Below, in pieces: positions 4,781 through 51,364 of a stretch of 64,000 bases of DNA. The number at the start of each line of letters is the position of its first letter. Position 1 is the stretch's first letter. The notes under the pieces were generated by a model, which saw only the letters and a program-made list of their open reading frames with translations, made no database searches and was not told the origin of the DNA. Origin of the DNA: Selaginella tamariscina. Lineage: Eukaryota > Streptophyta > Lycopodiopsida > Selaginellales > Selaginellaceae. The stretch lies in NCBI GenBank assembly GCA_003024785.1, contig PUQB01000347.1, positions 1-64,000 of the forward strand, in the 5' to 3' direction. Both the position numbers and the translations under genes were made by a program.

Positions 4781-5946
4781 AGCGGGTTTTGACCATTTTT
4801 TCTTTCTTTCCATAATATTAAATTAGACATGTTATTAAATTACATGGGTTTATAATTGGATTAATAAACTAAATTTAATTAGTCCATTTAGTTAATTATT
4901 ATTAAATTAGGGAGGTTTATTATTTCTTTTTAGGGTGAAAGAATACACATTGTTATTAAATTAGACATTCTTAAATCAAATAATATTTATTACAAGAAAT
5001 ACAAAGTAAAATATGGTCAATTTCATCATTACAGTATATTAATACTTGAAATGATTCATTTCATACGGATGTAAGGCATGATTGTGTTACTGTGTTTTTA
5101 TGCTTCATTGATATTGCATACCACGCACGCTATAACATATGTGGGATACTAACGTGTATGTAAGAATTTTTTTAAAGATAGAGAGACGAATATGAATTTG
5201 TATCTATCTATCCATTTGTGTGTGTTTTCTATGTGTAACCATATGTATACATGAATAATGATAATAAATAAATAAATAACCATATACATATTCTTAAATT
5301 TTCACTTTAATTATTAGATTTTTATTTCAAGATGATGATATATATAATTTACTTTTATAAATGTAAACACTTAGTCCTTTGCACCGATAATATGTAATGT
5401 CCGCACTTTTGTGTAAAATATTAATGATCAAAATTATATTCAATGCTAATTCTATGTATATATAGATATCATATTAATATAGAGTTTCAAACTTCTAATT
5501 AATTTCTTATAAAATTAATCCGAGGTATAAATCTACATTACAATTTCTAAAAATTTATAAGAGTATAAAATCAATCAAATGTGTAGTGCTAATAATAATA
5601 TCTTTATATATTAAATATGTGCACATATACCAAAGTTTTTTATTTTACTCATTTTAGACTTGTGAAAGAACATTTTACTAACTCTTAATAAGTTTATTTG
5701 TTGTTATTAACAATCATATTATTAATCGTAAATCATATATAGATAATACATACTATATATAGGTGTGTGTTGTAATATATAATTAATAGAATATTACATT
5801 CATTATTAAATATACCATTTATTTAGTTGATAAATATATAATGTAAAGCATAATATAAATATTATTAATATATAGCTAAATATGGATCTTCACGTGTGCA
5901 AAATATTCTTTGATCCAATTCACCTGCAATTAACACATATAACAAA

Positions 5947-6184: not shown

Positions 6185-7061
6185 TCCTCAATATATATAG
6201 GACTAGAATATAACCCTACATATCCTACATAGTACTGTGAAGTCCTGGCTAAGAGGTATGTTCTTAGTAATATTTATGGAATTCCCTTATAAAGATACAT
6301 GAATCCCACCCTTGGTAGTTTTGTTTATTCATAAGATATAAAATACGAATATATAAATATTTTCCCTTCTTAAAATTAGTTTTAAATTGTCGCGCATGTG
6401 CATAGAATTTGATTCTAGGTAGTGTTGTCTATATATAACATAAAGACTTTTACTTCTTAATATAGTATTTGTTTTAGTAATATCCTTATGATATATATTC
6501 AATTGTACCCGTAGTGAGAATCACTATTTGTTGTTAAAGTATCTGTATAGGTTAGGAGAAGCTGTATATATTGAATTAATCTTTACAAATTATACACTTG
6601 GTGATATCATATAATTAGGTTAATTTGAATTTTAAATAGTTCAATTTTGCATGCTCTGCTTATGTATTCTAGTGTGTTACAATTTACAAGAATTTTATTA
6701 ATGACCACATAAAAGAAAGTTTTTAGGGGTATACTTTGATGTGTATATTGTGGAGACTGGATGCCCTTACCCATTTGTATGTGATGTCCTCTACTTATAA
6801 ATCTAATAATTCATATTATTTAATTATGAATTTCTATCTTATAAAATTGTGTATTATATATAGCACATAGTTTACATATAACGCTACCATTGTAAGTACT
6901 ATCTAAATCCATCTCGTCACCATTGTTATATCTTATGGCTTTAGAATACATTTGTCTTGATATTTTTACACTTTCATATTTAGTCTTCCACATAAATTGT
7001 GTGTAATCCTCATGTCTAGATATAAATTCTTTTTATCTTAATCGTTTCATTTTGATGGCAG
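6185..7061 (+). promoter_or_regulatory. TATA box, non-coding first exon and 5'UTR intron of the F-box gene
   Basis: A TATA-like ATATATATAGG lies near 6,190-6,201. An exon-like stretch runs to 6,255 and ends AAGAG before a GTATG donor. A pyrimidine-rich, AT-rich intron would run from 6,256 to the acceptor AG at 7,060-7,061, just 13 nt before the ATG at 7,075. The donor/acceptor pair and spacing are seen in sequence; the transcription start is inferred. Confidence 0.5.
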
Positions 7062-7074
7062 ATTTGAAGAAACA

Positions 7075-8347
7075 ATGGAGGGTGGGAGGGTTAAGAAGAG
7101 AGCAAGAGTCGTTCCACAACCTTCACCATCTCTTCCATATCTACCAATGGACATTCAATGTTCATCTTGTTCAAGCTTCCTTTTCCAAGTTTGCTGCTGC
7201 CCGGTCTGTATGCAAGGAATGGAAGGATTCGATTGACTCAGAAAGTTTTAGGAGCACATATCGTGACATAAGCGTGTGTGTCATGGCTCTCTCTGCGGAA
7301 CTTGGATCTTGGAAGAATAGCCGTAACGGCCCAATCCGTGTTGCTCCAAGTGGCGATAATCAATTAGTTATATACAGTGGCTCTTTAGCCAAGTGGTTCC
7401 GAATTGGCTGCTTGCAGTGTAGGAATGTATGGTCTTGCTCAAAGTCAGGTCTGATCCTTTTAAGTGGTTATCCCTTGGTTGACGCATGCATGACACAGCC
7501 ATTTGTAGTGGGGAATCCCATCACAAACAATTGGAAGGAGTTGCCTCCTTTACCACCAACAGAGGTTTATATGGGGGGTATATATGTTATGAGTTTGCCA
7601 CGATTTCAGACGTCGGTAATGGTCATTACCAAGTTATGGTTGCAGTCCATTCATGCACCTACATGGCTTCGAGGACTTCAGTTCTGGTTTATGACTCTAG
7701 AGCATTGAATTGGACGAAGCATCCCATGGGATTGCGCACTTGTATGGGAACACACCTTCACGATGGCTGTTGGGCGACAGTTGTTACAGAAGATGGTAAG
7801 ACGTATGTGACTCCCAAGAGATCAAGGAATGTTGTACATAGGTATTTTGCATTTATAGTGCGCAAAATGGTAGAGAGTGGGAAGTTTTGCTGCATGAACC
7901 CAAGCATGCACAGGTGATTGCACTAGTGAATTGGGGAGGGATGCTTTATATGGTTGGTTACTACGAGAGGAACAATGCGACAGTACTCGGAATATGGTTG
8001 ATCCGCATTCGAGGGATGCGTTTTATAAGTGAGACACAAATAGATATGTGGCTTAAAACATTTGGGCCAAGTAAGGCCAATTGGACATCATTTGTGAACT
8101 GTTGTAAACATGGGGACTTCATACAGGTAAATTTTATGTGATTTGTTAAATTTGAGTAAATTATATATTTGCATTTGTGTTTTAGATTTTTGATGGGAGA
8201 CACATGAACAATCGTGTTGCAATGCGTATGATTTTGTACGATGTGAGGAAGGATGTTTGGAACCTAAAGACTCTTAAGAACAAGCCTAACGGATGGGCAC
8301 GTGGACATGGGTATGATCTCGTGGGATTTGGCTTTGGAAGTCCTTAG
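7075..8347 (+). pseudogene. F-box protein with kelch/F-box-associated-type C-terminal region; frame disrupted
   Basis: F-box proteins are substrate receptors of SCF ubiquitin ligases. The start ATG at 7,075 opens a basic N-terminus (about residues 1-20), followed by a plant-type F-box: LPMDI, a hydrophobic helix, KFAAARSVCKEWKDSI. Downstream segments match the usual C-terminal beta-propeller region: PFVVGNPITNNWKELPPLPP, TSVLVYDSRALNW, IALVNWGGMLYMVG. A 60-nt intron (about 8,127-8,186, GT...TTTTAG) precedes a last exon ending GFGFGSP-stop at 8,345-8,347. The frame changes at least twice inside the F-box (near 7,150-7,185), once near 7,610 and once near 7,890. Some changes are at short homopolymers (TTTT), so consensus error is possible; otherwise it is a recent pseudogene. 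Length (about 400 residues) is normal for the family. Confidence 0.75.
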
Positions 8348-20379: not shown

Positions 20380-23300
20380 TGTTACGACCCGTATAACAAA
20401 TCGAAGAATATTCCCTAAAAGGTATAAGCTAGAATATTCCTAAAGAGCTATACTTAGATCTAAGAGAATTAAGGGCACCCTAATATGGAAGCCTTTTGGA
20501 GAGCAGCGTGTGAAGACTAGAGACAGCTCGGGGGAGGTCGGGTGATTTTGTGAGGGTCTCTAGTTTGTACATAGTGGTGCCTAACAATTGGTATCGGAGC
20601 AAGGTTTGAGATGAGTGCCTGGTGGGAAGGAGAGGATAATACCACCTGTGTGGAGATGTTGGACACTGAAAGGCAAATTGTCCAAGGGTTTCATTGGTGG
20701 CAAGGACAAGTAGATACCTAAGAAGCTTCAGGAGATGGAGCGTGGAGAAGAGCACAAAGGAGACTTCTCTAAACCACAAGGTAAATTTTTATTTGTTCTT
20801 GCTCAATAGGTTAACTACATGGCACAAGAGGAGCCACACACACGTGCTATTGTGGTGGAGGGACGACTTGGTGAGCGTCCAGTGCGAGTCCTTGTGGATA
20901 GCATGAGTAGCAATAACTTTGTGTCAACAAAGTTAGTGGAGGAGTGCATCTTGCCCACGAAGACTGTGCCTCAATATGAATTTGAAGGCTCAACTATCAC
21001 ACAGAGCTACAGTGCTTGTGTGGAGGAGTTATAGCTGGAGGTTGGCAAAACCCAGCTGGTGGAGCTGCACGAAGAGCCTCAATACGAGATTGAGGGCTCA
21101 CTATCACACAGAGCTACAGTGCTTGTGTGGAGGAGTTACAGTTGGAGGTTGGCAAAACCCAGCTGGTGGAGTTGCACGAAGACTGTGCCTCAATACGAGA
21201 TTGAGGGCTCAGCTATCACACAGAGCTACAGTGCTTGTGTAGGAGTTACAGCTGTAGGTTGGCAAAACCCACTGGTGGAGCTACACGAAGACTGTGCCTC
21301 AATACGAGATTGAGGGCTCAGTTATCACACAGAGCTAAATTGCTTGTGTGGAGGAGTTACAGCTAGAGGTTGGCAAAACCCAGCTGGTGGAGACTTTCTT
21401 TCTTGCGAAGCTAGTGCGTGTGGATCCTAAGATCTAGTGGAGCACCAAGCACATGAAGCTTGAGTATAGTGAAGTGAAAGACACTTGGTTTGGAACAAAG
21501 CTTGAGTCTCCAAACAAGTTCTTTTACTGTCACCTTGAGCAAAGCTGTTGTGCGAGGAGTTTGCTGACGTCTTCCCTCCTGAGCTACCTCATGGCTACCA
21601 CATGCAAGAGGTGTGGAGCTGGAATAGGGTACGAAAGCCATTTACCGTAAGCCATTCCGACTGAGCCATGCTAAGGAGCAAGAGGTTAAGAGACAAGTGA
21701 TGGAGCTATTGAATATGGCTTCATACAACTGAGTAAGTCTCCATTTGGTGCACCAATATTACTTGTCAAGAAGAAAAATGGCACCATGAGGATGTGCATA
21801 GACTACAGAGCTCTCAACAAGCAAACAGTGAAGGACAACATGCCCATGCCATGTTGGATACTATCATGGATCATCTCGGTGGAGCCAGAGTGTTCACCAA
21901 GATAGTTGGGCATTTCGAGTTCACTGTTATGCCATTCGGCTTAACAAATGCCCCAGTCACATTCACTCGGTTGACGACTGAGGTGTTTGGTGACTACTTG
22001 CACGACTTTGTGGAGATCTTCCTCAACGATATTCTTATTTAGTAAGAATATGAAGGAGCATGTGCAGCATTTGCGAAGAGTTCTTCAGTTGTTGAGGGAG
22101 AACAAGCTCTATGCAAAGAAGAGCAAATGTGCATTTGCTCAGTGCAAAGTGGAGTATTTGGGTCACATTGTGACAAGTGGAGTGAAGACTGATCCACAGA
22201 AGGTGGCAGTGGTGGAGCAATGGCCAGTTCCTAGCAATACAGAAGAGTTACGGAGTTTCTTGGGCATGGCTGGTTATTACCGGCGGTATGTCAAGGATTA
22301 TGCCAAGAAAGCTTCTCCGTTAACTAGGTTGCTGAGGAAGGACGTTCCCTTTGCATGAAGTGCTTCAGAGAAGAGCAGTTTCCAAGCTTTGAAACAAGCT
22401 TTGGTACGTGCACTAGTTTTATGTATTGCAGATCCCTCTAAGCCTTATGAGGTATCTGTGATGCAAGTGGAGTGGCCATTGGAGTTGTACTTATGCAAGA
22501 GGGAAGGCCTATTGCTTATAAGAGTCGTACTTGAATCCTGCAGAGCAACAATACTCAACGTATGAGCAAGAACTACTGGCTATTGTTAATGCATTATGAG
22601 TTTGGAGGCACTATCTTTATGGTGCAAGTTTCAAAGTGTTTACAGATCACAAGACTTTGGTGTATCTGTTCAAACAGAAAGAGTTAAACTCTCAGCAAGC
22701 TCGCTGGATGGTTAAGCTCATGGAGTTTGGCAAATTTCCTATTGAGCATTGCGTGGGAAAGGCTAACGTGGTGGTATATGCTTTGTCACGCGTTAGGAGA
22801 GCCACAGTGGTTAGAGAATTCCAAACATGCTTATGTAATGCATTAACAAGGACGGTCAGTGAGTTTAGCCAGGTAGTTCAACATGCTCAAGCACAAGACG
22901 CTGAGGTGCAAATCAGAGGACAGCTAGAGCCACCATTCTCATTTTAGGATGGAGTTTTGTACTACAATGGCCGTGTGTATCTTCCTCGTGTGGACCATTT
23001 GATCAACCAGGTACTATATTTCCATCATGATCACCGGAGGCTGGTCATTTTGGGGGGAGGAAAATGTATGAGTTGATCAAGAGAAGGTTCTATTGGAGGA
23101 ATATGAAAGCTAATATCATAGAGTACTGCAGGACTTGTGACAAGTGTCAGCAAGTAAAGGTGCCCAGGGAAAAACCAAGTGGGCTATTAGTACCATTGCC
23201 TATTCCAGACAGGATGGGGCAGTATCTCTATGGACTTTGTCACCCATTTGCCAAGGACAGTGGCATTGGAATGAGTCCATATTATGCTATGTTTGGACGG

Positions 23301-24012
23301 CATTCCAAGACAGCTTTTGAGCTGGGTTTAGCAAGTAAGAAAGCTCAAGGCAACATGGATGAGGAAGCTAAAGATCTGAGTGTTGAGCTTAGAAACATTC
23401 AGAGTTTGTGCAAGAAGAACTTACAAGTAGCTCAAGCGAGCTTATCAAGTTTGTTAATGAGCACAGAAGCTTCCAAGAGTTCCAGGTGGGAGATTATGTA
23501 TATCTTTGAGTATTTGCCACACATGTAAGGCGGAACATTGTTGCCTTATGGAAGGGACACAATGATAAGTTGTCTCCTAGGTACTCAGGTCCTTATGAGA
23601 TTCTGGAGCGTATCGATAAGTGACATATCGACTACGGCTGCCAGAAGGAGTGAGGGTGCACCCAGTGTTTCATGTTAGCCAGTTAAAGAGAGTACTCACA
23701 AGGAACGAGTCCCAGGGTAGATTCTTTGTGAATGTACAAGGCTAATGATACAGGACCAGTTGAGTAAGTTATATTGCCCTTGAGGACTAGGACTTGCTAA
23801 TGGGGGAGGATTGTTACGACCCGTATAACAAATCAAAGAATATTCCCCTATAAGCTAGAATATTCCTAAAGAGTTATACCTAAATCTAAGAAATTAAGGG
23901 CACCCTAATATGGGAAGCCTTTTGGAGAGCAGCGTGTGAAGACTAGAGACAGCTCGGGGGAGGTCGGGTGGTTTTGTGAGGGTCTCTAGTTTGTACATAG
24001 TGGTGCCTAACA
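20380..24012 (+). mobile_element. Ty3/gypsy LTR retrotransposon, internally deleted, with short LTRs
   Basis: LTRs of 207 bp (20,380-20,586) and 201 bp (23,812-24,012) start TGTTACGACC and end GCCTAACA and are highly similar. A primer site TGGTATCGGAGC (20,589-20,600, an initiator-Met-tRNA type) follows the left LTR, and a purine tract AATGGGGGAGGA precedes the right one. Order on the plus strand: protease-like segment VRVLVDSMSSNNFVS (about 20,880), a four-fold tandem duplication (20,955-21,400), RT (about 21,770-22,060, catalytic box as FLNDIL), RT connection and RNase H (22,080-22,800), integrase HHCC zinc finger (about 22,990-23,160), then a jump to the integrase C-terminal part (23,270 on) and a chromo-like tail (23,560-23,750). 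The RT palm is shortened and the integrase D,D-35-E core is missing, so the copy cannot be autonomous. Confidence 0.9.
20955..21400 (+). repeat. Four-copy tandem duplication inside the Ty3 element
   Basis: Units of about 110-120 bp containing TCACACAGAGCTACAGTGCTTGTGTGGAGG, GGTTGGCAAAACCCAGCTGGTGGAG and CTCAATACGAGATTGAGGGCTC. It expands the linker after the protease-like domain and breaks the frame. Copies are nearly identical, so the expansion is recent. Confidence 0.85.
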
Positions 24013-36560: not shown

Positions 36561-36584
36561 AATATCAAACATCTCATATATGGG

Positions 36585-36588
36585 AATC
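36585..36588. repeat. 4-bp target duplication, left (AATC)
   Basis: AATC immediately outside the left inverted repeat. The right copy is 51,171-51,174. The empty site in copy A shows a single GATT (2,861-2,864), its reverse complement. Confidence 0.9.
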
Positions 36589-36615
36589 ATGCATGTTGTA
36601 ACTAAAATGGGCATG
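36589..36615 (+). repeat. Left terminal inverted repeat of the giant element
   Basis: 27 bp; differs from the reverse complement of 51,144-51,170 at two positions (A/G and C/T). Just inside lie three GAATATTC palindromes (about 36,684-36,742); GAATATTC also occurs inside the right end, but the motif is common across the window. Confidence 0.9.
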
Positions 36616-37094
36616 GCTATAGTCCCATTTCCTAATAATTAGCAATTTTAGCTATTTAATTAGCATTTTCTAATATTAAAGGAATATTCTTTAGAATATA
36701 TGTTTGAAAATAGAATATTCTTTAGAATATTCTATTTTGTATTCGACCCTTTAATAAATTATAGCATTCATTGAACAAAAATTAATAACATTATAAAAGT
36801 AGAAGGTATTAAATTATATAATATATTGCCTAATATAACAATTAAGGAAGAGCATAAGAGGTACATTATATAAATATTGATGTTGTTATTAAAATATTAA
36901 TATTTAAATATAACATTATTAATTAAAAATTTGTAGTAGTAATAATATATATATAAAATCCTATAATAATATAGTCAATCTTCCATATCATTTTTTAAAT
37001 TTATATAGTTAAGTAAACAATTTGGTACTATTATTAAAGAGTTTATAATAATTATGAATATTAATATATGATATTTTATAATTTTGTAATTGCT

Positions 37095-40000
37095 TTAAGC
37101 TTCAGAAAACATACATTCCCTTGCAGTTTTGTTAATCGTGACTTTATCAACGCTTCTTGACATCCACCCATATCGAATGGATTTAACATTTATAAAACAT
37201 GCTGGGTCTTTTTGATGTTTCTCTAGGCATCCATTATATCTTTCGCTCTCCTTCTCGTGTCGCCTTTTTTGTGGTTTAAACCATGCAACCTTAACAATAC
37301 TATTTTTTGTGATTACTTCAGGTGTGTCGATAATTTGACCCATCCAAATAGGCTGATTATATGACACATAAGTAATGAAACCATCATTAGTTTTTGAAGA
37401 TCCTGGCAGCAATCAAAGTATGCTTTAGGTTTTTGGTTCCTTTGTCCAACAAAGTGTGGGGTTTGCACTTCCACATCACTACTGGCTTCTATGTCGTCTG
37501 TGCTCAGTGATGTCATTTCAATCTCCTCTCGCCACCTTGTTTTAGGCCAAAAAGGGTGTTGCAATTCTGTACTTGTGACAGTAGGCCCTTCCAACTCTCG
37601 AACAACAGTCTCCCAATAGTCAACCACATGCTTATATAGTTCTGAGTAACCAGTTGCCTTATCAGAATTCTTTGGCATCGATTTTTAAACCCATGCCACA
37701 TATTTTTTGATGCCATCAATAATAACCTCTTGTTCCTTGAGCTGGGCACTCAATGGAATAGGGTCTGGTTGTCTTCTGGGAAAGTGGCTTTCCATTCTCT
37801 CCACTTTTGAAGAGCATTAACCCTCTTTCGGTAACCACTCCTGCTCTGATGGCCGTAACTTGTACTGCATAATAGGTATACCATCTTGTATGGAGAAAAA
37901 GAATTGTAGCGGCAACAAGGTGACCAATTAAAGAATCACTCCCCTCTTTTATATACTCCTTGAGAAATTTTTTGAAGTCTAGCACCTCAGTCACAAGCAA
38001 AGCACAACTTTTTTTGGAGATGCATTCATCATATCGGTAAGGTAAGTGCACTTGTCCTTTTTGTAGAGTTGGAGACCTTGCTGAAGAACGCATCAATATC
38101 TTCATGAGTGTGACCAACATAAGAAAACTGAGCGTGATTGTTCAAACACACATTGGCAACAAGCATTGACAAGTATGCTAGCACATATCTAGAAAATAAA
38201 AGTAAGTATGAGCTTGAGAAACCCTTAAGTAAAATGATTTACCTATTTTTGTTCTCGCCTGCACAATTATCCATCTGTAAAAGCAAATGACGAGGAAGCT
38301 TATTTGATGTTGAGGACACATGTACACTATTTGAGCTAGATCCCTCCACTGAACCTGAACTCTCAACAGGGCCATCTGTTTTTTGTGCAGGTTGCTGACA
38401 ATGCCTCTCATATTCCCAAGTAGCCTCAAGTGCAGACGTGTTCATGAGAGCATTATGTAAAGGTTGAAGGTGTTGTTTCTTCACTTTGAGATCACTGATA
38501 GGACTTGTCTGTGAGTGGGCTTCAAGGTTTCTGAAACACATGGCCAACGACCCAATAGTGAAATTGGAGTCGCTAGACCAATGTGGAAGTGAAAAGTGTC
38601 CATATGACTCACAACCGTGTCCATGTGTTAGCACACCTGAATCAAAGTTTCATGACATTTCCAAGGCACTTTGGTGTTGCAACGAGCTTTGGAATGCTGG
38701 TCTTTGAATGATCCATCTTGTCATGGATCAAGCACAGGTACTCTGATGGGCGTGACACAGAAAGCATGCGGTGTGCATAGTACTGAGACCGGCAAGTTTG
38801 TTGTGCAATCATGTGGGCCTCCATCTTCTTTTGAATGGCAGTGATCTCCACCAAGGTTTTTGCACAAGCCTCTGCAGCCTTCAATGATGTACAAGTGTCA
38901 CACTTGGAAAAGCTAGAGTGTTTTGCAATCTCCACATCCTTAAAATGAGTATTCCATATGTTGTTGAAGGTACCAGTGCAGATTGCTTGCAGCCCCATCA
39001 AGCTGAGGCACTTGTTCACATGTTCACACAGCTTCAATTGAGTGTAGATCGAAGGCAAAACCTTGAGATTTTCCCTGACCCCTGCATTTGTGGTTCGGCA
39101 TTTGTGAGGCATCCTGTCTGCATTTGCTTCCACAAAAGCCTTGAGTATCTCTATGGCTGCCATAATGTGAGAGCGGGTTTTGACCAAGCCAGTGTTCCCA
39201 TGTACTGAGGTTCGCGCTCCATCTAACCACTCATCCCTCCGACGGTAGAACGTGGTCTTTGGGATCCCGTATATACTGTACCAAGCTTTGAAGCAGATGG
39301 CCACCTTATTAAATACCATGGATGTACTCTGATAACCTGTGTCCGATTCCATCAATACACCCAGTTAGTGCAGCATATACAAACTCATGCCTTTGCTTTT
39401 GGGTGAGCGTACGAAAGACATGTCTACATTGGGTAATTTCATTCCGGTCTGCCATCTGACAACACTTCTTCTTGCAGCAGTCAATCGTGGAAATGCTCGT
39501 AACACTTTCGGAAGATGTAGGATCCATCTTCACCCTCTTGCTGAAACTGCAGGGGAAGATCTGCAACCCATGAATCGCCTTTTTCTTATAATAGGACCAA
39601 TGCAAGGAACCTCTTCAAATATGAGTTGTTCTTCCGGGTTGTTATTATTGAAATCCAACCCAGAATATGTTGAACCATCTTGCCGTCTTAATTCAGATGT
39701 TCGCCACCTCACGAGGGATCCAGGATGCAAAGTGCCATTAGGTGAAACCTCTGTCACAACTACACCCACGAAGTCGGACCCTAGTTTCTCTTCTGACACT
39801 GCTTCCATTGGATTTATAGCTGTGATGATGCCTCTCCCAACCTCAATCTCATGAAGAAAGAGAATCACCTCATCCATCACAGCAGGCAAGCCATCATCTG
39901 GAAAACTCGTGCTACTGTTTGTTTGTGACTCTGTATATTCTGTGTCAGCCTTGACTTCATCCAAATTCCACAATACAGGAGAACCCTCCTCAAATTCCAT

Positions 40001-41469
40001 TCCAGGAACCTCAACATGCTTGAAAATGGTGTTCACCCATACGTACACACAAGATCCTTGGGCAATATTGTGACATGATGCATTATCATCTCGAACTTCC
40101 ACAGTTCCAGTGCCAACTATCTCGTTGTTCCGAAGAAGACATACTTTATCTCCAGTATTATACATATTGTCCTGCACATAAATAATTGTGTTATTTATGA
40201 TATCTGTTTATGCAATATTTTAAGAAATCATAACTGCGGTTGCTTAATAATATGCATGTGCAATAATACATAATTATGTATAAAGATAATATCTCATGCT
40301 TTATTAATATAACTGATGGGCGGGATTAATCCCGCCGCAGACTCTACCCCTTCAGAGTGAGTCGGCGGGATTAATCCCGCCGTCGACTCTACCCCATCGG
40401 ATCGGATTAATCCCGCCGCGATACTCTCCTCGTCGAGAGAGCGGCGGGATTAATCCCGCCGCGGCTCCCTCCGACGAGGAAGTACGGCGGGATTAATCCC
40501 GCCGCGGCTCCCTCCGACGAGGAAGTCGGCGGGATTAATCCCGCCGGATCTCCTCGACGGAGAGTCGGGGGATTAATCCCGCCAACACTGACGACGGAGA
40601 ATAGGCGGGGGATTAATCCCGCCCACAACTCTGACGACGGGGAATAAGCGGCGGGATTAATCCCGCCCACAACTCTCTCCGAAACTATGATTTCAAAGAG
40701 ATTCGGGATGAATTCTGCCCACAAATATTTAAAACAGGGAAGTATTGGCGAGATTAATCCCGCCACCCCTTCTCTGCCTCCTAAAATGGTTGGCGAGATT
40801 AATCCCGCCGACAACTCTTTCTAATAAATTCAAGTAAATCATTATCAGTTGAGAGAGTTATCGGCGGGATTAATCTCGCCGCTCTTTTTAAGAGGCGGAG
40901 AAGCATTGCCCGAACTAATTCTGCCATAACTATGAAAGAGATGGTGGCGGGATTAATCCCGCCACCTCTTCAAAGAGGCAAAAAAAATGGCCGGATTAAT
41001 CCCGCCGCCCGGCTAACCGAGAATATTAAGTTAAAGGTATATTTAAACGGGATAAATCCCTAACAGAATATATTGTAATCCTAATGCATTCCTAAATCCC
41101 TAAATTCTAAAATTTAAGAGAGAATGTAAGAGAGTGAATCTTTATAAATATATCTAAATTTGTTTATAATACTTACTTGTAAACAGCACTGAAGGCGCCG
41201 TGCTTTCCTATAAACAATAGCGCACCCAATTTAATGTCGCTCCTGAGCTGATCACTAAGAAGAAAAAAGAAAATCTGAAGAGTGAAAAATAAAGAAATGA
41301 AGAAACCCTTGCCGGAGAAAGAACCAGATCTGAATTTGAGTGGGAAATTAAATGTATTTTCAAATTTACATGTCAGACTGATAATACTTATGTCAGAAAT
41401 TCGAAATTTTTGAAATAACAGAAAAGAAAATTTAAGATGAGTTGAAACAAATAACCGACAGTCTGACAT
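37095..41469 (-). CDS. Transposase-like protein with DUF7869-type RNase H-like domain; intron-containing, frameshifted
   Basis: Transcribed leftward. A candidate exon 1 ends at 41,177 at a GTAAGT donor; a 1,005-nt intron (41,176-40,172) holds the left palindrome array; exon 2 joins in frame (...FSAVYK|DNMYNTGDK). A BAH-like or chromatin-reader-like region may span 40,160-39,540. Next come a cysteine-rich segment (CCKKKCCQM), a helix-turn-helix-like GIPKTTFYRRRDEWL (about 39,270), a zinc-binding-like KCDTCTSLKAAEA (about 38,910), KMDHSKTSIPKL, and HGHGCESYGHFSLPHWSSDS with NFTIGSLA. Then LLQMDNCAGENKNR, a 54-nt intron (38,242-38,189), YVGHTHEDIDAFFS, and a C-terminal part to 37,095. The D...N-x-NKN and GHTH-x-DID motifs are those of DUF7869-type proteins. 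Single-base frame changes occur near 39,570, 38,641, 38,110, 37,690 and 37,400. Role inferred: the element's own transposase. Confidence 0.65.
40317..41056. repeat. Left array of the palindrome GGCGGGATTAATCCCGCC
   Basis: About 15 copies, perfect or with one to three changes, spaced 35-55 bp, with unrelated GC-rich spacers (CTCTACCCC, CTCCCTCCGACGAGGAAG duplicated at 40,460-40,530). Lies wholly inside the predicted first intron of the transposase-like gene. Each unit is a self-complementary 18-mer. The open frames seen here (G-G-I-N-P-A/A-G-L-I-P-P repeats) are products of the repeat, not genes. Confidence 0.9.
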
Positions 41470-42420
41470 ATATACTCTCCAATTCCAATGAGTGTTTTAA
41501 AATTGCATTTAATGTTATTCAAGTGCTTCAAGCTGTTTAATATTACGAAATTTTTGTAATTGTTCTACATTCTTAATATTCAAGTATATATTATTGAGTT
41601 TATATTATATATATATATATACTAATACAATAAATAAATTGATATATTATTATGTATCATTTAAAATATATTCATAGTCTGTTTATTATTATTATTTTCT
41701 TAATTACTCGAGTAATTAATTTACATTTCCTATTATTATGGGATATTCTTTATTATTTTCTTAATATTGAAAGAATATTCCAATATTAAACCTGATTATC
41801 ATAATTAAATTAGTCTTATTCTTAATTATCTCAGTAATTATTCTACATTTGTATATATTAATAGGATTTTCTCAATTAATTTGTTATTATTTCAAGAATA
41901 TTCTATGTTAAACCTTATTATCAATATTAAATTAATATATATTATTAAAACTATATATGACTATATATTAGATAAAATGATGTATTATTATGTATAATTT
42001 AAAATATGTTCATAGTGTGTATATTAATTTATTTTCTTAATTACTTGAGTAATTAATCTTCTTTATATTAATGTGATATTCTTTATTATTTTCTTATTAT
42101 TCCAAGAATATTTCAATATTAAACATGATTATCATAATTAATTTAGTTAATTATTTCAATACTTGATCTACATTTGTATATATTAATGGGATTTTCTCAA
42201 TTAATTTCTTATTATTTCAAGAATATTCTAATGTTAAACCTTATTATCAATATTAAATTAATATATATTATTAAAACTATATATGGCTATATATTAGATA
42301 AAATCATATATTATTATGTATAATTTAAAATATGTTCATAGTGTGTATATTAATATTATTTTCTTAATTATTCGATGTTTGTTTTGCACATATTATATAT
42401 AAACGATTATAAATTTATAT
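41470..42420. repeat. AT-rich central region with a two-copy tandem repeat of about 330 bp
   Basis: Blocks such as TTCATAGTGTGTATATTAAT, ATTTTCTTAATTACT, TTTCTCAATTAATTT and AATATTCTAATGTTAAACC recur near 41,670, 42,010 and 42,335, giving a period of 325-340 bp. A TATA-like AGTATATATGTC near 41,470-41,480 could drive the leftward transcript. No coding. Confidence 0.65.
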
Positions 42421-43500
42421 ATACACGTGCACACGCATTAGAAGCACTTACAAAGACACATATGCATGCACATTGCCCTAAACCAAACTTGAGAAATTAT
42501 ATGTTGCTTCTTTATTGAAAAACATCATGTTCAACGCATGTATGATCTATATGTACTCAATCTGTGTGTATGTAACACATTGAATTTACACATGTAATAT
42601 ATATGTATGTTTGTGTGTATACACGTGTGTATGTATATATGTGTACTAATATATGCAATGTGTACGGTTTTCATTTGTTAACACTCTATCTCTTCTCTCA
42701 TACATACACAGTGTCACCATGCATAATCCCTTCTCTCATACATACACACCATGCATGATCATGATCCATAATATGTAGCCTGTCTCTTCTCTCATACATA
42801 CACACCATGCATGATCATGATCCATAATATGTAGCCTGTCTCTTCTCTCATACATACACACCATGCATGATCATGATCCATAATATGTAGCCTGTCTCTT
42901 CTCTCATACATACACACCATGCATGATCCATAATATGTACTGATGTTACAATATTATGTAATATGTATAATGTATATATGTGTATAACACTCACTCCTCT
43001 CATACATAAACACCATGCATGATCCATCCTAACCCTAAACCCTAAACCTTAAACCCTATGTAACACATTGAATTTACACATGTAATATGTATGTATGTTT
43101 GTGTGTATGTATATGTGTGTACTAATATATGCAATGACATTGTGTATGAATTTAATTTGTTAACACTCTTTCTCTTCTCTCATACATACACATCATGCAT
43201 GATCCATGTAAATATGTACTGTCTCTTTTCTCTCAAACATACACACCATATATGATCCATAATATGTATTGTCACTCTTCTTTCATACATACACACCATA
43301 CATGATCCTGTACTCTGTCTCTCTAATATTAATATGTACTAATATGTATGTATGTTTATGTGTATAATACTATGTGTGTATATATGTATCGTTGCACATG
43401 AAACTTTAACACTCTCATGGACACACACGTGTTAAACCCTTGCATGATATTTATTCTTGGGGTGTATGTGATACACCACGCACACGCACACGCTGATAAT
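42421..43500. repeat. Minisatellite, about 60-bp units, with a 490-bp duplication and telomere-like units
   Basis: Units containing TCTCTTCTCTCATACATACACACCATGCATGATC, four near-identical at 42,725-42,920 and degraded copies to 43,330. A longer block beginning TGTAACACATTGAATTTACA is present at 42,570 and again at 43,057. Between them, AACCCTAAACCCTAAACC (43,029 on) is a short run of plant telomeric repeat. Confidence 0.7.
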
Positions 43501-43681
43501 ATAATAAAAGAATATTCGTTTAGGGCGAATCTATAGTTTATTCTTTTTAGGGTTTAAGTATATTCTTAGAAGGAATATTCGATTAGGGTTAATATATATT
43601 CTATTCCTTTTATGGTTTAAGTATATTCCTAGGGTTTGTAAGGCGGCGGCGGCGAAATCTCCTTCTTTCTCACACACAGGT
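43500..43681 (+). promoter_or_regulatory. Putative promoter and non-coding first exon of the rightward unit
   Basis: Two imperfect copies of about 65 bp (GAATATTCG...TTAGGG...TATTCTTTT...GGTTTAAGTATATTC). Then AGGGTTTGTAAGGCGGCGGCGGCGAAATC and a pyrimidine stretch ending CACACACAG before GTGAGAT, a good splice donor at 43,680. If used, the intron would span the microsatellites and the right palindrome array and end near the start of the ParB-like gene. This mirrors the left unit. Inference only. Confidence 0.4.
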
Positions 43682-43834
43682 GAGATCTCTCTCTCTCTCT
43701 CACACGCACACTCCTCTGAGTTTATTTATTTATTTTTATTCACATATATATTTATATGTGTGTGTATCTTAATAATATAATTTAGATCTCTATCTCTCGC
43801 ACACACACGCACACTCGTATACATATACACACAC

Positions 43835-43879
<45 letters not shown>

Positions 43880-43971
43880 CTTCTCTCTCTCTTCTCTATA
43901 GATCTCTATCTCTCGCACACACGCACACTCGTATACATATACACACACACAGATATATATATCTATGTGAC

Positions 43972-44004
<33 letters not shown>

Positions 44005-44334
44005 ATATTCTATTTATTTATCTATATATATGTGCGTGTGTGTGTATCTGTATAATTTTATTGATTTGTTAATTGTATCTCTCGCACACACATGCACACT
44101 CCTGTATATATATATGTGTGTGTGTGTTTGTTTATCTGTATGATTTTATTTGTTTCACACACGCATACACACGATATACATATACACACATATATATATA
44201 TATATACCTATGTATACATACATATATTATGTGTATCAGTATTTGTATATTTTATTTATTATCTATCTCTCGCACCAACACGCACTCTCCTACACACACA
44301 TATACATATATATATTCTGTGTGTGTGTGTGTGT
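43682..44334. repeat. Compound CT/CA/TA microsatellites
   Basis: (CT)n at 43,686, long (TA)n at 43,832-43,875 and 43,974-44,007, and many CACACA/TGTGTG runs. The block with TCTCGCACACACGCACACTCGTATACATATACACACA is duplicated at 43,793 and 43,912. The open frames seen are simple-sequence artefacts. Confidence 0.8.
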
Positions 44335-45400
44335 AGCAGCGGGATTAATCCCGCTGCCTATATGGTGAGACGTGTGTAGCGGCGGGATTAATCCCGCCGC
44401 CATTTCAGGCAGGTTATTCGGTTAGCCAAATGAGCGGCGGGATTAATCCCTCCACACAGGGCCGAGTGAAGGGCCTGGGAGGCGAGATTAATCCCTCCGC
44501 CTACGCATGCCTTGCGCGGAATCGGGCGGGATTTATCCCGCCGCCATTGGCTTGCCTGAAGGGCCTAGGCGCGGGATTAATCCCGCCGGATTCCGCACAG
44601 GGCATTGGCGTCCGGCGGGATTAATCCTGCCGACTAAGGCCCGAGTGAAGGGCCTGGGCGGCGGGATTAATCCCGCCGCGTACGCATGCCCTGCGCGGAA
44701 TCCGGCAGGATTTATCTCGCTACTAAAGGCCTGCTTGAAGGGCCTAGGCGGCGGGATTAATCCCGCCCGATTCCACGTAGGGCATTGGCGTCCGGCGGGA
44801 TTAATCCCGCCGCATAGGGACCGAGTGAAGGGCCTGGGCGGCGGGATTAATCCCGCGCGTACGCATGCCCTGCGCGGAATCCGGCAGGATTTATCTCGCT
44901 ACTAAAGGCCTGCTTGAAGGGCCTAGGCGGCGGGATTAATCCCGCCCGATTCCACGTAGGGCATTGGCGTCCGGCGGGATTAATCCCGCCGCATAGGGAC
45001 CGAGTGAAGGGCCTGGGCGGCGGGATTAATCCCGCCGAGCCAATGCCTGTTGGAGGGATGAATCCCACCACCCTTCCTTTTTTACTCCTTTGGTGAGTCG
45101 GACCAATCCTAAACGTTTATGTCTGAAACGTAGAAGGTTTACAACATACCAATGGAGAGGACTGGGAAGGGTGGCGAGATTCATTTCACCATCCCTTATA
45201 TGGTGGGCGAGATTAATCTCGCCGCCTTTCTAGAGTCACTGAAGGGGTGTGCTAAATAAATCCTGCCAAGTTCTCTCTGAGACCGAGAAGGGTGGCAGGG
45301 TTAATCCCGCACTCCCATTCAAGGCCTCCAGAAAGGTGGCGAGATTAATCCCGCCCACTCTTTCAGGAGGCATTGAAGAGGTGGCGAGATTAATCCCGCC
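44335..45400. repeat. Right array of the palindrome GGCGGGATTAATCCCGCC, with 180-bp higher-order repeat
   Basis: About 22 copies of the 18-bp palindrome or close variants (GGCGAGATTAATCCCGCC, GGCAGGATTTATCTCGC), spaced about 40-50 bp. From about 44,640 to 45,000 a 180-bp unit with four palindromes and GAGTGAAGGGCCTGGG, ACGCATGCCCTGCGCGGAAT and GATTCCACGTAGGGCATTGG spacers is duplicated almost exactly and a third copy begins. Copies decay toward 45,400. A single variant copy also sits in the 61-nt intron at 47,772-47,832. Confidence 0.9.
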
Positions 45401-45535
45401 GCACCTTTCATATGAATATATGTGTATTAATATATATAAGTTGCATATCTCATTTTATTTACTTTTATCATCTTATCATAATATTTCGAGTAAAAGCCAG
45501 TAAACTATGTAAAACTGTCCAAAGCTCACATTTGT
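45401..45535. other. Spacer between the array and the TRIM element
   Basis: AT-rich stretch without visible motif. Confidence 0.4.
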
Positions 45536-46690
45536 TGTCACAACCTTTCCCTCTCCCCTTATGCCAACTAGGCAAAGGGCCAATTGGTATTTATGAGAGG
45601 GCCCCTGGTCATGACCCAGGTCCGCTTGGGTCTTTTTTGCCCACATATCCCACATATCCCACAATCTTTACCCAGGTAGTCAACTCATCAAGTTAGAACT
45701 ATGACACTCTCCACCCATTTGAGAAAGTGGATGCCTCATCCACAGACTTCAAGGGGTTGCTACTATGCCTTCCTCCAGAAGGTGCAGCCAGAGGCGTTTC
45801 TACTCATGCTCTTCCTCTAGAAGGTGCAGCCAGAGGCGTGAGTAGCTCATCAGGTTGAACTATGACACTCTCCACCCATTTGAGAAAGTGGATGCCCTCA
45901 TCCACAGACTTCAAGGGGTTGCTACTATACCTTCCTCCAGAAGGTGCAGCCAGAGGCGTTTCTACTCATGCTCTTCCTCTAGAAGGTGCAGCCAGAGGCG
46001 TGAGTAGCTCATCAGGTTAGAACTATGACACTCTCCACTCAAATCCTCATCACAGACTTCAAGGGGTTGCTACTATACCTTCCTCCAGAAGGTGCAGCCA
46101 GAGGCGTTTCTACTCATGCTCTTCCTCTAGAAGGTGCAGCCAGAGGCGTGAGTAGCTCATCAGGTTAGAACTATGACACTCTCCACCCATTTGAGAAAGT
46201 GGATGCCCTCATCCACAGACTTCAAGGGGTTGCTACTATACCTTCCTCCAGAAGGTGTAGCCAGAGGCGTTTCTACTCATGCCCTTCCTCTAGAAGGTGC
46301 AGCCAGAGGCATTTCTACTCACGCTTAGCTCAACTTACGTTTGACTCGCAACCCAGCCCGCAAGCTGTACTCGCATCACATGTCAATCGGGCCAGAAGCG
46401 ATCACAGAGCCGCTTGGCTGTACACATGTGATCGAGGGTTTAGTTAGGCAAGGACAAGTGCGCTAACCTTAGTGGTTTGAGCTTTACTCAAAGTTCATCC
46501 CTAATGAGAATCGAACCTGGGACCACTCTGATACCAAATGTCAGAACCTTTTCCTCTCCCCTTATGCCAACTAGGCAAAGGGACAATTGGTGTTTATGAG
46601 AGGGCCCATGATCATAATGACCCAGGTCCGCTTGGGTCTTTTTTGCCCACATATCCCACATATCCCACAATCTTTACCCAGGTAGTAACA
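45536..46690 (-). mobile_element. TRIM retrotransposon nested in the giant element
   Basis: Direct repeats of about 150 bp at 45,536-45,684 and 46,539-46,690 are the LTRs. On the minus strand the LTR starts TGTTACTACCTGGG and ends TTCTGACA, and two bases later a primer site TGGTATCAGAGTGG (46,536-46,523; initiator-Met-tRNA type) follows. The 1-kb size and lack of coding domains define a terminal-repeat retrotransposon in miniature. The interior holds four tandem copies of a 150-170-bp unit (45,690-46,320) containing GAACTATGACACTCTCC and two GAAGGTGCAGCCAGAGGCG blocks. No clear TSD. A related LTR fragment lies at 13,748-13,830. Confidence 0.8.
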
Positions 46691-46699
46691 TATGCCTTG

Positions 46700-49469
46700 T
46701 TCCATCCAATGTCACATTCTCGGATCCAGAGGTCACCAGTTACAACATTAATTTTGGGTGGTTTTTGTCGACTTGTGGATAATGACGTTCACGTGTTCAC
46801 TATGATGTTGACCGTGGAGTTCTTCTTTCAACTCAACGAAAGCCCATCTATAGAGGGGATCCAACTGGATGTTTATTTCGAAGATTTTAGACTCATCGAG
46901 TAGGTGTATTCTCAACAGAGATTGCTTCACACAAACAAAATTCACAAGTGGAGCAATCTTCCCTCTTCACATTGAAGAAGAACACAGCGACACCATTAAG
47001 GAGATTGAGAGGGTGCTTGGTCTCAGGTTCTTTATAGATCACGTTCAATTTGCTTAGCAAATTTCGGGAGCTGGAAAAGTGTGCCGAGAACATTAGAACA
47101 GCATCATCGGGGATCACACATGTTGATTCAGATCGTAAAAGAAAATCATTAGTCATTTTTCAGCTGCACCTGTGGCGTCCCATGCTGCAATAAGCCACAA
47201 GGAAATGATGTTGGATGATAGATTTATGAGTGTTAGGGTTAAGTATTGCAGCGTCAACCCAAACTTCAATTACAGGCCACTCAATCAGGAACGTGTAGCT
47301 GAGCTCATGGAGAAGATGAAGGACGACAATTCTTACACCGTTCCACATAATGCTGTTTTGTGCGCATACTACGAGAGAAACAAAGGCGCTGACAAAGTGT
47401 GGATCACAACACCGGAACAAATGAGGAAGGTTCAGACGGAGAATAGAAAATCAATCAAGTACTACATCATTAGTGGCCAGCACACAATAACGGCAGCCCA
47501 ACGACTTCTCGACAAACACAACAAAGGAACGATGGCAACAAAACTTTCCGAGCATACCCGTGAGAAGCTGACAAAAAGATCGGCGTTTTTAGCGAAGCCG
47601 AATCTCACAATCGAGCAGTACCATAAGTTATCGGCGGAATGGGACGCTGCAGACACCAACCACTACAACAGCAAAATATGGGAGAAGTTCAAACACACGC
47701 GAGCCGTGTGGGAATCTCTTCAGCGACCACAAAGAGCTACTGCAGGGAATACACAATCTGCGGACTACCGGGTAAGCAAATTGTTTGGGCGGGATTTATC
47801 TCGCCGGTATATTAATCTGTCTTTTTTCTCAGAGAGTTGAAGAAATTGTAGCAGTTGATTTTGCCCAGGTGGGGGAAGGAAACATCCTTTTTGATGATGT
47901 TGATTTCTTGTCCCGAGGATAGGATCTTTGCGAAATGGTTGGGGATTATGGAATCCTTTGCAAAAGGAACACTGAAGAAGAAGCAGACAAGTGAAGTGGA
48001 GCCCTCAGAGAAGTCTGCAAAGAAACCCAGTAAGACGCCGAAGGCTAAGTCTGTTCAATTATAAAGGATGTAGACAACGATTTCAAGCTCACATGGTTGA
48101 AGCCTTTAAATGGAACAACGATGGAGGAGATGGAAGTCTTGGCTGATTTGGTGATTGATGGCAAATTACAGATTAACAACAGCAGCCCCACCTCTCCTTT
48201 TCATCTCAAGGCAATGGAGTTGAAGACGGTCAGGCACTTCAAGGAGTGGTTGGGAATACACTGCCACAAACTGGGTTGGATTTCGGCTTCAACATACGAA
48301 GAGGTCAGCAAATATTTGCATGTGACAAATGATGATATGCTTGTCGAATGGGTGAATCAATCGGAAGATCTGGGCAAGAATCTATTGCACGCCAACGCCA
48401 AAAAGGAGAACATTGCGATGACGCCTTCTCTTATGGCAGTCCTTCAGCAGCGGAGAACCGAGTTGAACCTTATAAAGGAGGATGCTACGAATCACGACAA
48501 GCCCTACAGATGTTTGTTGTTGGATTCGGAGACTTTATGGGGTACCATCACTGCTTGTAGGAAACCGTTTCAATTGTTCGTGATGGATCGGCGGGTGTCA
48601 AAAAATCCTTCGACAGACAGGACACTAGAGGATTTGGTGGAGAAACTTAGCCGTGCAAGCATGTACAAAGAAGGTATTTATTATTGAATTCATACTTGCA
48701 CTCTTGACTGATATCTACGTTTTCAGGTATTTATTTCTTGATTCTTGCTCATGTCACCGATACCTTTGCCTTCTCCTTTGCCAAGAGGAATAAACATCGT
48801 TGGACAGGATTTTATATGAATGATGCTGATCCGAAGTGCATTGATTCGGTTGTTCACTTGGTTGTTAGGAATGCGCCAAACAATTTAAACTTCCAAATGA
48901 CTGGCCAGGCATCTGTTTGCACTCCAACGGCCCTGAACCTCCATCCGATACACCGATAGTGAGAGTGACGTATTCGGCAATGTACGTTATCCAAACATCA
49001 CAAGTCAAGCGGCACGGAGCATCGTCAACTTGATCAGGGTCCTCACAGTGATGCGTGGGTTTTTGACTACTGCACTAGGGGGTCCGTCTTGAAGGAGTGT
49101 TACCTTCGGATACATGTGTATTTGCCGTTGAAAAGGATAAGACCATGGTTGAGGACCTGAACAAGTGGATAGATAGGTTCTCAACTGACTACCCCAACGA
49201 ATCCATAAAGGAGTATTTGAGAAAGTTCCCTCCGATAAGTGCGATAGCTCTGAAACGAATCTGGTTCAATGTCGGAGTCTGAGGACGAACTTCAATCAGA
49301 TATTAGACCGGAAGTTATCTCGAGGAGTACAGAACATTCACACTCCATTACCCATGGAAACATCAATAGAAGATACAGAAGATCATGAACCATCTCACAA
49401 GCGGCTTAGACCTTCTTCGCCTCACTCAGAAGGTAATAGCGAAGAAGAATTGTTAATGAGTTCTTAGAG
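46700..49469 (+). CDS. ParB-like domain protein with a DNA-methyltransferase-like C-terminal region
   Basis: N-terminal segment in shifting frames (46,740-47,160). Then an open exon (to 47,771) has a ParB-N-like domain: VKYCSVNPNFNYRPLNQERV, AELMEKMKDDN and YYIISGQHTITAAQRLL, matching the ParB pattern of position-box, then G-x-H-R-like, then AA. After a 61-nt intron (47,772-47,832) and a lysine-rich linker, a second open exon (48,097-48,673) is followed by a 53-nt intron joined in frame (EG|IYFLILAHV). A methyltransferase-like region follows: NITSQAARSIVNLIRVL, SDAWVFDYCTRGSVLKECYL and DTCVFAVEKDKTM, like a motif I FxGxGS...E-K-D arrangement. The usual catalytic D/N-P-P-Y/W is not evident; MDRRVSKNP may occupy that place. 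The tail is charged, with HKRLRP as a possible nuclear signal, and stops near 49,467. ParB plus DNA methylase fusions are common in phages and prophages. At least five frame changes; activity doubtful. Confidence 0.55.
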
Positions 49470-49575
49470 TGACGAATAGTTGTAAATGAGTGTAACATAA
49501 GGCATTTTTGTATATTTCGTTTATATTTGTACAGAAAATAAATTCTCAAGGATTAATGAAGCTTTTAGTTCAAAC

Positions 49576-50622
49576 ATGGGTCACACATTAACAAGGTAAA
49601 TAATATACCTAATTATCATTTTGCAGATGTAATGAAACAATTGAGAACATGGATTTTCAGCATTGGCATGAGGTAAGAGAGGGGTTTGGCGACAATTTCT
49701 TGTGCCACATGTCAGAATGACAGAGTTCTGCAGGAAATGGATAATAATGCAGCTCAAAACATCGTTACCATGGGGGCCACTTCAGTTTTTTCATCATCAT
49801 TTTTATTGGCTTCAGTTCCGAAATCAATTTCTTCAGCGCATGCAATATCTGAATCTTGTAAGGATGATGTACAATTAAATGATGAAGGGATAGGCAACGA
49901 GATAGTGGCAACGGATAAATGTGAAAGGGAGCAAACAAGTGATTTGCAAAGTATTCAAGAGGCAACGCTATCCATGTTACTCATGGCCATATTGTGTTGT
50001 TGGATGTCAATGGTGTTCTGCTTCATCGACAAAGGCCCGAGGATAGAAAAAAGAAATCAAACAAGGAGATTTCATTCCTTGTCATGGTAAATTTCGATAT
50101 GATATTATTTTTCGTCCAGGGTTGGATCGTCTCTTTCAAAAGCTTAAGGAGATGGGTGCGCTTGTGGGGATTTGGTCATGCATGCAGATTCATAACTTAA
50201 CACCGCTGTTGAATTTGCTTAAGAAACATTGTAGTGTTGCAGAAGAGGTGATTCGTAAAGATTGGATTTTTGACCAGCGAATATGTTATAAACCTCTCGA
50301 ATTTCACAATATAAGAAAGGAAAGCAAGCCATACTTCTTCAAGAATGAAAGAATAATTGGGACTCATGGGGAGATCAGTCGCTTAAGGATAATGAAGAAT
50401 GCACATATCTTAGTAGTAGACGACTCTCCTCAGAAGGCTATGCTCAACCAAAACATTGCTTGTATTCATCCAATCACTTTCGATCCATATTCTGATACCG
50501 ATATCATGGATGAGCTAGTGAACTACTTGGATACGTGCCTCAGAAAGAAGAATCTCGAAAATTTTTGTGAGCAGTATCCACCGTATCAACATTTCCTGAA
50601 GCTTTTCTTTCTCGTGATTTGA
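49576..50622 (+). CDS. FCP1/NIF-type HAD phosphatase-like protein (cargo gene)
   Basis: Members of this family (SCP/NIF, FCP1 homology domain) dephosphorylate serine in the RNA polymerase II C-terminal domain or other nuclear proteins. Visible motifs: HIVLLDVNGVLLHRQ (motif I, D-x-N-G-x-L variant), GKFRYDIIFRPGLDRLFQKL, GALVGIWSCMQIHNL (motif II region), RKDWIFDQRICYKPL, and HILVVDDSPQKAMLNQN (motif III/IV, VDDSP), ending near 50,622. The core is about 200 residues, normal for the family. The N-terminal region (49,720-49,980) is acidic and low complexity. The ATG at 49,576 joins in frame to later exons only if introns of 31 and 43 nt are removed, which is very short. Two frame changes (near 49,985 and 50,065) disrupt the core. 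Probably a captured host gene. Confidence 0.7.
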
Positions 50623-51143
50623 ATTTTATAAAATGAAGGATAGCAACCGGGCGCTTTATAATATTATTCTTAAGGAACGTCATTTTTTAGATGAGCCTTT
50701 ATGCAGACCTTCTTATTACATCTTATGTATTAACAAGGATGGCAACTCCCAATTGCATTCGTGAGAGTGTTAGTGTGGCAACAACATCAAGATATTGACC
50801 AAAATGATTTGATTAATCCGGAGAGTGATGATTTAGACAAAATGAAAGATTTCTTTGTATGATAGGAAGAAAGTATTTATAAAAAATTAACATGTTGATA
50901 AGAAAATGATTTCATTTGTAATTATGTTTGATAGTATTTCTTCATTATTGTAAACTATTTTTAGAATAATATGAATATTCTAAGATATTTTAGGAATATT
51001 CCTTACTAAGTAAGGTTATTGAAGGATTAATTAATTAATTAATTAATATTTAAGGCTTAATTACATATTAATTAAATGATTAATTAATAATTAAAACTTA
51101 AGTATTAATTAGTAATTTATTTTATATTCCCATTTTCACGTAT
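50623..51143. other. Right subterminal region of the giant element
   Basis: AT-rich; holds (TTAA)-rich runs at 51,030-51,090 and GAATATTC twice near 50,970-51,000. No coding signal beyond the decayed end of the phosphatase gene. Confidence 0.5.
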
Positions 51144-51170
51144 CATACCCACTTTAGTTACAACATGCAT
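51144..51170 (-). repeat. Right terminal inverted repeat of the giant element
   Basis: 27 bp, reverse complement of the left end with two differences. Followed directly by the AATC duplication at 51,171-51,174. Confidence 0.9.
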
Positions 51171-51364
51171 AATCCCTCTAAAATAGATTCATAACTTTTA
51201 ATATATATTGAATGATAAATGCTTTGTATGTATTTACATGATTAAATATGAGAGATATGATATATATACAATGTGTTATGTATATGATACCTAAATGCTA
51301 TACTTACAAACTTAATTTAATATATATATGTATATGTATACAATGTGTGTGTGTGTGTGGTGTA

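Follow-up and report, generated by a model that had tools for sequence, protein, structure and literature searches.

Among described systems, Sola transposons with accessory genes come closest to the locus analysed here. In Ectocarpus, the element Sola1-1_Ec32 carries a ParB–methyltransferase gene opposite its Sola1 transposase; ParB-like genes also lie opposite the transposase in transposons of brown, green and red algae (PMC12477816). The same paper suggests that ParB–methyltransferase proteins encoded by transposons of eukaryotes could bind the element from which they come and modify it; the passages that put forward this idea name no binding site. Sola2 elements make 4-bp target-site duplications (TSDs) (PMC3627910). 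Here we describe an element in a 64,000-bp stretch of contig PUQB01000347.1 from the plant Selaginella tamariscina (the whole stretch is called the window). We conclude with good confidence that it is a full-length member of a high-copy family of cut-and-paste DNA transposons, most likely of the Sola1 type, and report arrays of a palindrome that lie between its transposase gene and a ParB-like gene.

In bacteria, ParB–parS partition systems and ParB–methyltransferase proteins combine a ParB motif with clustered palindromes beside the gene. The window element shares a putative ParB-like motif and palindromes by the gene, whereas here they belong to a nuclear transposon, in which no ParA was noticed. 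As in Sola1-1_Ec32, size is giant and an accessory gene, of ParB plus N4/N6 methyltransferase type in the alga, occupies the strand opposite the transposase; the published element, however, measures 21.5 kb and comes from a brown alga (PMC12477816), against 14.6 kb in a plant, and the Selaginella family differs in its weak ParB part, nearly lost methyltransferase motifs, a NIF phosphatase-like gene and the palindrome arrays. The word stem 'palindrom' has no occurrence in the main text of that paper. With Sola2 elements that carry Fanzor1 the window element shares short terminal inverted repeats (TIRs), 4-bp TSDs and an accessory gene, but the Sola2 TSDs are AT-rich (AWWT in one host) and the accessory gene is Fanzor rather than ParB-like plus NIF (PMC3627910). 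Features of the locus are collected in Table 1.

Table 1. Features of the window element and its surroundings (window positions).
Feature	Position	Strand	Basis or remark
Whole element	36,589-51,170		Ends, TSD and empty site; 14.6 kb
Left TSD, AATC	36,585-36,588		Read in sequence, junction alignment
Left TIR, 27 bp	36,589-36,615	+	2 differences from the right TIR
Transposase gene, DUF7869 (PF25273)	37,095-40,207	-	Homolog search, Pfam; frames interrupted in window copy
Transposase, N-terminal part	40,207-39,530	-
Transposase, central part	39,364-38,642	-
Transposase, further frames	38,649-38,239 and 38,238-38,029	-
Array 1, 14 copies of GGCGGGATTAATCCCGCC	40,319-41,006		≤3 mismatches; adjoins 5' end of transposase gene
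AT-rich spacer	41,597-44,335		Tandem repeats (326-bp and 56-bp units, microsatellites)
Array 2, 19 copies of GGCGGGATTAATCCCGCC	44,338-45,400		≤3 mismatches; upstream of ParB-like gene
Nested TRIM/SMART-like insertion	45,536-46,688	-	Separate from transposon; two ~148-bp direct repeats, 94% identical
Gene with ParB-like domain	46,854-49,470	+	Weakly similar to ParB-like frames in related elements; frames interrupted
ParB-like domain, motif YYIISGQHTITAAQ	47,139-47,760	+
Lone further palindrome	47,788-47,805		Inside ParB-like gene region
ParB-like gene, second part	48,049-48,687	+
Faint methyltransferase-like motif	about 49,040-49,270	+
NIF/CTD-phosphatase-like gene (PF03031)	49,660-50,640	+	Pfam
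Right TIR	51,144-51,170	-	End comparison
Right TSD, AATC	51,171-51,174		Read in sequence, junction alignment
Host repeat copy A, empty site	2,289-3,300	-	Single AATC (GATT on +, 2,861-2,864)

The element has exact ends and an empty site

The left end, ATGCATGTTGTAACTAAAATGGGCATG (from 36,589), and the inverted right end, ATGCATGTTGTAACTAAAGTGGGTATG (from 51,170), are identical at 25 of 27 bases; beyond these first 27 bases the inverted ends have little likeness. The flanks belong to copy B of a host repeat, of which copy A lies inverted at about 2,099-5,943 according to a self-comparison of the window. Self-BLAST pairs 2,289-2,864 with 51,775-51,171 (90%, 609 columns), 2,902-3,292 with 36,579-36,221 (80%, 394 columns) and 3,287-5,943 with 31,882-29,258 (91%). 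When the two copy B flanks are joined, copy A can be aligned with them on both sides of the junction and across it, with a single AATC (...TATGGGAATCCCTCTAAAATAG...), with the caveat that 32 bp of copy A, 6 bp from the AATC, are missing from copy B. A preliminary description of this DNA had proposed that a large TIR transposon is present in full, bounded by a 4-bp TSD, and that its empty site lies in the window too. Both points hold: the coordinates are exact, AATC stands on both sides, and copy A spans the junction. The target at 36,582-36,588 / 51,171-51,176 reads GGGAATCCC. This is similar to GGGATTAATCCC, the core of the palindromes inside the element, a likeness that is probably coincidental.

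A high-copy family with short and long members

The host assembly comprises 300.7 Mb in 1,391 contigs. A 23-base end pattern, allowing ≤3 mismatches, matches it 2,411 times in forward and 2,319 times in reverse orientation (4,730 in total), and the same pattern read backwards, our control, matches 0 times in either. Thirty loci were fetched around exact end matches and the partner end was sought at ≤5 mismatches; three of them contain complete short copies of 245-246 bp, each with identical 4-bp flanks (TTAA, ATAT and ACCA). Because these three insertions and that of the window element all differ in their target, the TSD is 4 bp without a fixed sequence. The short copy with the TSD ATAT, 246 bp in length, is itself nested inside one of the long copies described next, that of C84 (L055:6790-7035).

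Two further long copies lie in host contigs C378 (2021-14326, 12.3 kb; stretches L056 and L057) and C84 (1363-15445, 14.1 kb; stretches L055 and L058). Both share the ends of the window element (0-1 mismatches) and its order of parts, their main BLAST segments are 75-99% identical to it, and they hold 34 and 25 palindromes, respectively, at ≤3 mismatches. Copies with different ends, which the preliminary description had named as damaging to its boundaries, were thus not what the search returned. Its expectation that other copies would show 4-bp TSDs held for 3 of 3 short copies and for 0 of the 2 other long ones.

Some observations weigh against the reading as a full-length member of a cut-and-paste family. 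The sister long copies lack matching flanks (CACA/CATT and TCTA/AAGT), which leaves a TSD in one of three long copies; chimeric assembly, or exchange between the copies, might be the reason. In addition, the frames of the window copy are broken at several places, and those of the sister copies at partly different ones. Counted against the window copy, the ParB-like gene has 23 1-bp indels to 52 substitutions and the NIF gene 5 to 4; for the transposase gene the counts are 15 to 58 (L056) and 7 to 45 (L055), and for the left end (251 bp) 0 to 2. The share of 1-bp indels is high in places and could stem from errors in the consensus of a long-read assembly rather than from decay, so the frame breaks in this window call for caution. 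Noisy assembly, together with the unmatched flanks of the sister copies, could also be taken to mean that the element boundaries are themselves an assembly artefact. We regard that as highly improbable in view of the same ends at thousands of places, TSDs in all three short copies and the aligned empty site.

A DUF7869 transposase and a probable placement next to Sola1

Minus-strand frames between 40,207 and 37,095 were stitched together as the transposase query. It has 58 relatives at E ≤0.001 among 4,441 candidates (best 2e-137) and matches PF25273 (DUF7869) at 9e-29. Most of the 58 are unnamed; those with a name come from a liverwort (Riccia sorocarpa), a moss (Ceratodon purpureus) and a mussel (Mytilus edulis), and the first two agree with a plant as the likely host. 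The Riccia protein P0025 (32%, 2e-62) and the Ceratodon protein P0034 (26%, 3e-52) share the homologous transposase domain, and each is named 'hypothetical protein'. Across 49 aligned relatives the acidic residues D192, D195, D353, D393 and D395 (P0002 numbering) are near-invariant, and all are kept in the window copy; judged by the D...D...D/E pattern, we infer that they are catalytic. A search of viral contigs with the DUF7869 alignment returned 0 relatives. The DUF7869 protein would act as a DDD/E-type transposase that binds the TIRs, excises the element and joins it to a target cut with a 4-bp stagger, and the short copies, little more than ends, would be moved by it in trans.

Two marine contigs hold further DUF7869-like frames. 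In L010:1-9878, a contig from a metagenome-assembled genome (MAG), such a frame has as its neighbour, on the opposite strand, an open frame of 2,341 aa, and L011:259-3465 (identical in L012) holds a 1,068-aa frame with a distant DUF7869-like core, GHTHDKIDRLFS.

TSD length separates the element from most familiar superfamilies. CACTA/EnSpm and PIF/Harbinger elements duplicate 3 bp, MULE 9 bp, hAT 8 bp and Tc1/mariner 2 bp, and all are ruled out by the 4-bp TSD. piggyBac and Kolobok elements target TTAA and are ruled out by AATC, ATAT and ACCA, found besides TTAA. Since the 4-bp TSD and a putative ParB-type gene opposite the transposase match published elements (PMC12477816; PMC3627910), we place the window element next to Sola1, and it is probably a Sola1-like giant transposon. 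Its TIRs, alike at 25 of 27 bases, also suit a Sola element. What supports the assignment to Sola1 is the length of the TSD together with the set of genes carried. A superfamily unrelated to Sola1 would agree with the fact that the term DUF7869 was not found in the literature searched; we consider it unlikely, as the 4-bp TSD and the putative ParB-type gene on the opposite strand fit the published Sola1 element (PMC12477816). The preliminary description could name no plant DNA transposon family with such a combination of size, TSD and genes; extended to hosts other than plants, that statement would go too far, given the 4-bp TSDs of Sola (PMC3627910) and the Ectocarpus Sola1 element with its ParB–methyltransferase gene (PMC12477816). 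With this element, a DUF7869 transposase can be connected with a TSD of 4 bp whose empty site is visible, and with short copies and thousands of ends in one genome.

Palindrome arrays lie between divergent genes

The palindrome GGCGGGATTAATCCCGCC occurs 14 times exactly in the window and 0 times in 100 shuffles. At ≤3 mismatches there are 34 copies, all within the element and none in the other 49.4 kb, and 33 of them lie between the transposase and ParB-like genes, which are divergent, on opposite strands. Of the 33 spacings, 19 measure 42-46 bp and 4 measure 84-97 bp. Two palindromes, at 44,338 and 45,206, carry symmetric changes in both arms (AGCGGG...CCCGCT and GGCGAG...CTCGCC) that keep the palindrome. 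The arrays, the nested insertion and the 32 bp peculiar to copy A had not been among the points of the preliminary description.

The arrays could instead be expanded minisatellites, or enhancer sites bound by the transposase, for which the subterminal repeats of CACTA elements are the comparison, and so be unrelated to the ParB-like protein. Their tandem arrangement with higher-order 179-bp units speaks for this alternative, as do the other satellites expanded in the same spacer. The symmetric two-arm changes speak against it, and so does the distance of the arrays from the nearest element ends (3.7 and 5.8 kb). We give it an appreciable probability, below an even chance; distant elements bear on it from both sides.

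Distant elements repeat the plan with another palindrome

A scan of prokaryote genomes yielded 12 DUF7869 loci, of which 8 (L002-L009) are in contigs of one cyanobacterial MAG, 'uncultured Trichormus'. With a G+C content of 37-40%, several divergent copies and AACACGTTTGCGTGAAGAA-type ends, these MAG loci resemble contamination from a eukaryote. In L003 the transposase frame (PF25273, 4e-51) measures 873 aa. A ParB-like frame of 584 aa runs divergently from it, and after this come a piece with IPYG and one with DLFSGTGI, which matches PF01555 (N6_N4_Mtase) at 4e-8. 'ParB-like' is a motif reading here, since Pfam names no ParB. With the L003 ParB-like protein as query, the same MAG gave 12 matches, spread over 9 contigs, and the viral contigs searched gave 0 relatives.

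Palindromes of the type GTCGATGCNNNGCATCGAC occur in 6 of the 8 loci (L003, L004, L005, L007, L008 and L009). Where both genes are on the contig (L003, L005, L007 and L009), the palindromes lie between the transposase gene and the divergent ParB-like gene. They recur about every 51-52 bp, or at twice that distance, in L007 and L009, and every 81 bp in L003. The arms in L007 are of two types, GATGC/GCATC and GATACC/GGTATC, both of which keep the palindrome. The palindrome sequence is unlike that of the window family, while the element plan is alike. The recurrence of position and palindromic form with a different sequence argues against minisatellites or enhancer sites. The loci L002 and L006, in which no such palindrome was found, favour that alternative and weigh against arrays bound by the ParB-like protein. 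Nor does the type occur in L016, which was retrieved because it has a ParB-like gene. A matching 4-bp flank in one of three two-ended MAG elements (AACA in L003; none in L005 and L006) likewise detracts from the parallel.

The ParB-like gene and its possible role

The plus-strand frame at 47,139-47,840 bears the motif YYIISGQHTITAAQRLL. PHROGs returns a ParB-like partition protein for residues 17-123, a weak match (E 0.047). Against one MAG-element ParB-like frame, BLASTP gives E 0.005, and profile scoring against the MAG-element frames gives 6.1 bits (E 0.005); the window has 54 frames of 100 aa or more, and of the 30 that were scored the ParB-like frame ranks first. A profile–profile alignment is collinear (E 0.004) and reaches the downstream stretch LT..[EQ]...L..WD...[DN]Y..K, and swapped pairs give E 0.22 and 0.41. 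Further downstream, a piece with ...SDAWVFDYCTRGSV...CVFAVEKDK... resembles the S-adenosylmethionine-binding region of methyltransferases as a motif only.

Several results weigh against this identification. Pfam returned nothing for the window gene, and a search of 5.8 billion proteins with its stitched and single frames gave 0 homologs at E ≤0.001. BLASTP against the set of 14 MAG ParB-like frames reaches only E 0.018-0.11, and in BLASTP of the window frames against those of 15 MAG loci the ParB pair is not among the matches listed. Of 1,000 shuffles, 888 were scored and one of these reached 6.1 bits, and the next window frame scores 4.7 bits; the profile–profile alignment, over 114 columns, has a probability of only 8%. 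For the methyltransferase, the profile match in the window (E 0.066) is likewise motif only, and Pfam and BLASTP found none. PDB sequence searches with the ParB and NIF proteins gave nothing useful. Thus, on this weakly supported reading, motif, position and company more than score would mark the gene as ParB-like.

We tentatively propose a parS-like system in a nuclear genome, in which a ParB-type protein would read element-specific palindromes that change with it between families and so regulate, mark or cluster the copies; we hold this as a possibility that falls short of even odds. The ParB-like protein is put forward as the reader because the architecture is shared between families and the palindrome arms change together. 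Divergently transcribed from the transposase, it (a ParB–methyltransferase in relatives) would bind the arrays between both genes. These would most likely serve to control the two divergent promoters or to mark the element's DNA, and not in strand cleavage, given their distance from the ends. As the methyltransferase motifs of the window family look lost, its protein would be a DNA-binding regulator only. The arrays offer candidate binding sites in two distant families, with a different sequence in each, and thereby open to direct test the self-recognition idea put forward for ParB–methyltransferase proteins of eukaryotic transposons (PMC12477816). This element might reveal how transposons of large size achieve self-recognition and self-control.

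The NIF gene

The PF03031 match lies at 50,047-50,622 (1e-8). In the sister stretch L057 the NIF gene is a single open frame of 340 aa (PF03031, 4e-12), and in a third copy, L058, DNA matching 48,821-51,170 is 90% alike.

NIF-type phosphatases are ordinary eukaryotic genes, a point in favour of the view that the ParB-like and NIF genes are passengers captured from the host (Pack-type capture) with no role in transposition. Consistent with it, no NIF-like frame was noticed among the listed open reading frames of at least 100 aa in L003 and L005, most of which had no profile search. For the ParB-like gene, though not for NIF, capture is opposed by its recurrence opposite the transposase in the distant elements and by the ParB-like genes in transposons of brown, green and red algae (PMC12477816). 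Overall, we judge passenger capture to be rather improbable.

Nested insertion and other window features

The nested TRIM/SMART-like insertion carries TGGTATCAGAGTGG next to its inner edge, which we take to be a primer-binding-site-like sequence (initiator Met tRNA). No flanking duplication was seen around 45,536-46,688. The sister stretches L055-L058 contain no match to 45,540-46,687, so the insertion probably came later; without it, the transposon measures about 13.4 kb. Elsewhere in the window, a retroelement integrase zinc-binding domain (PF17921, 5e-16) is encoded at 23,031-23,528, and a weak F-box/kelch-like frame lies at 7,007-7,708.

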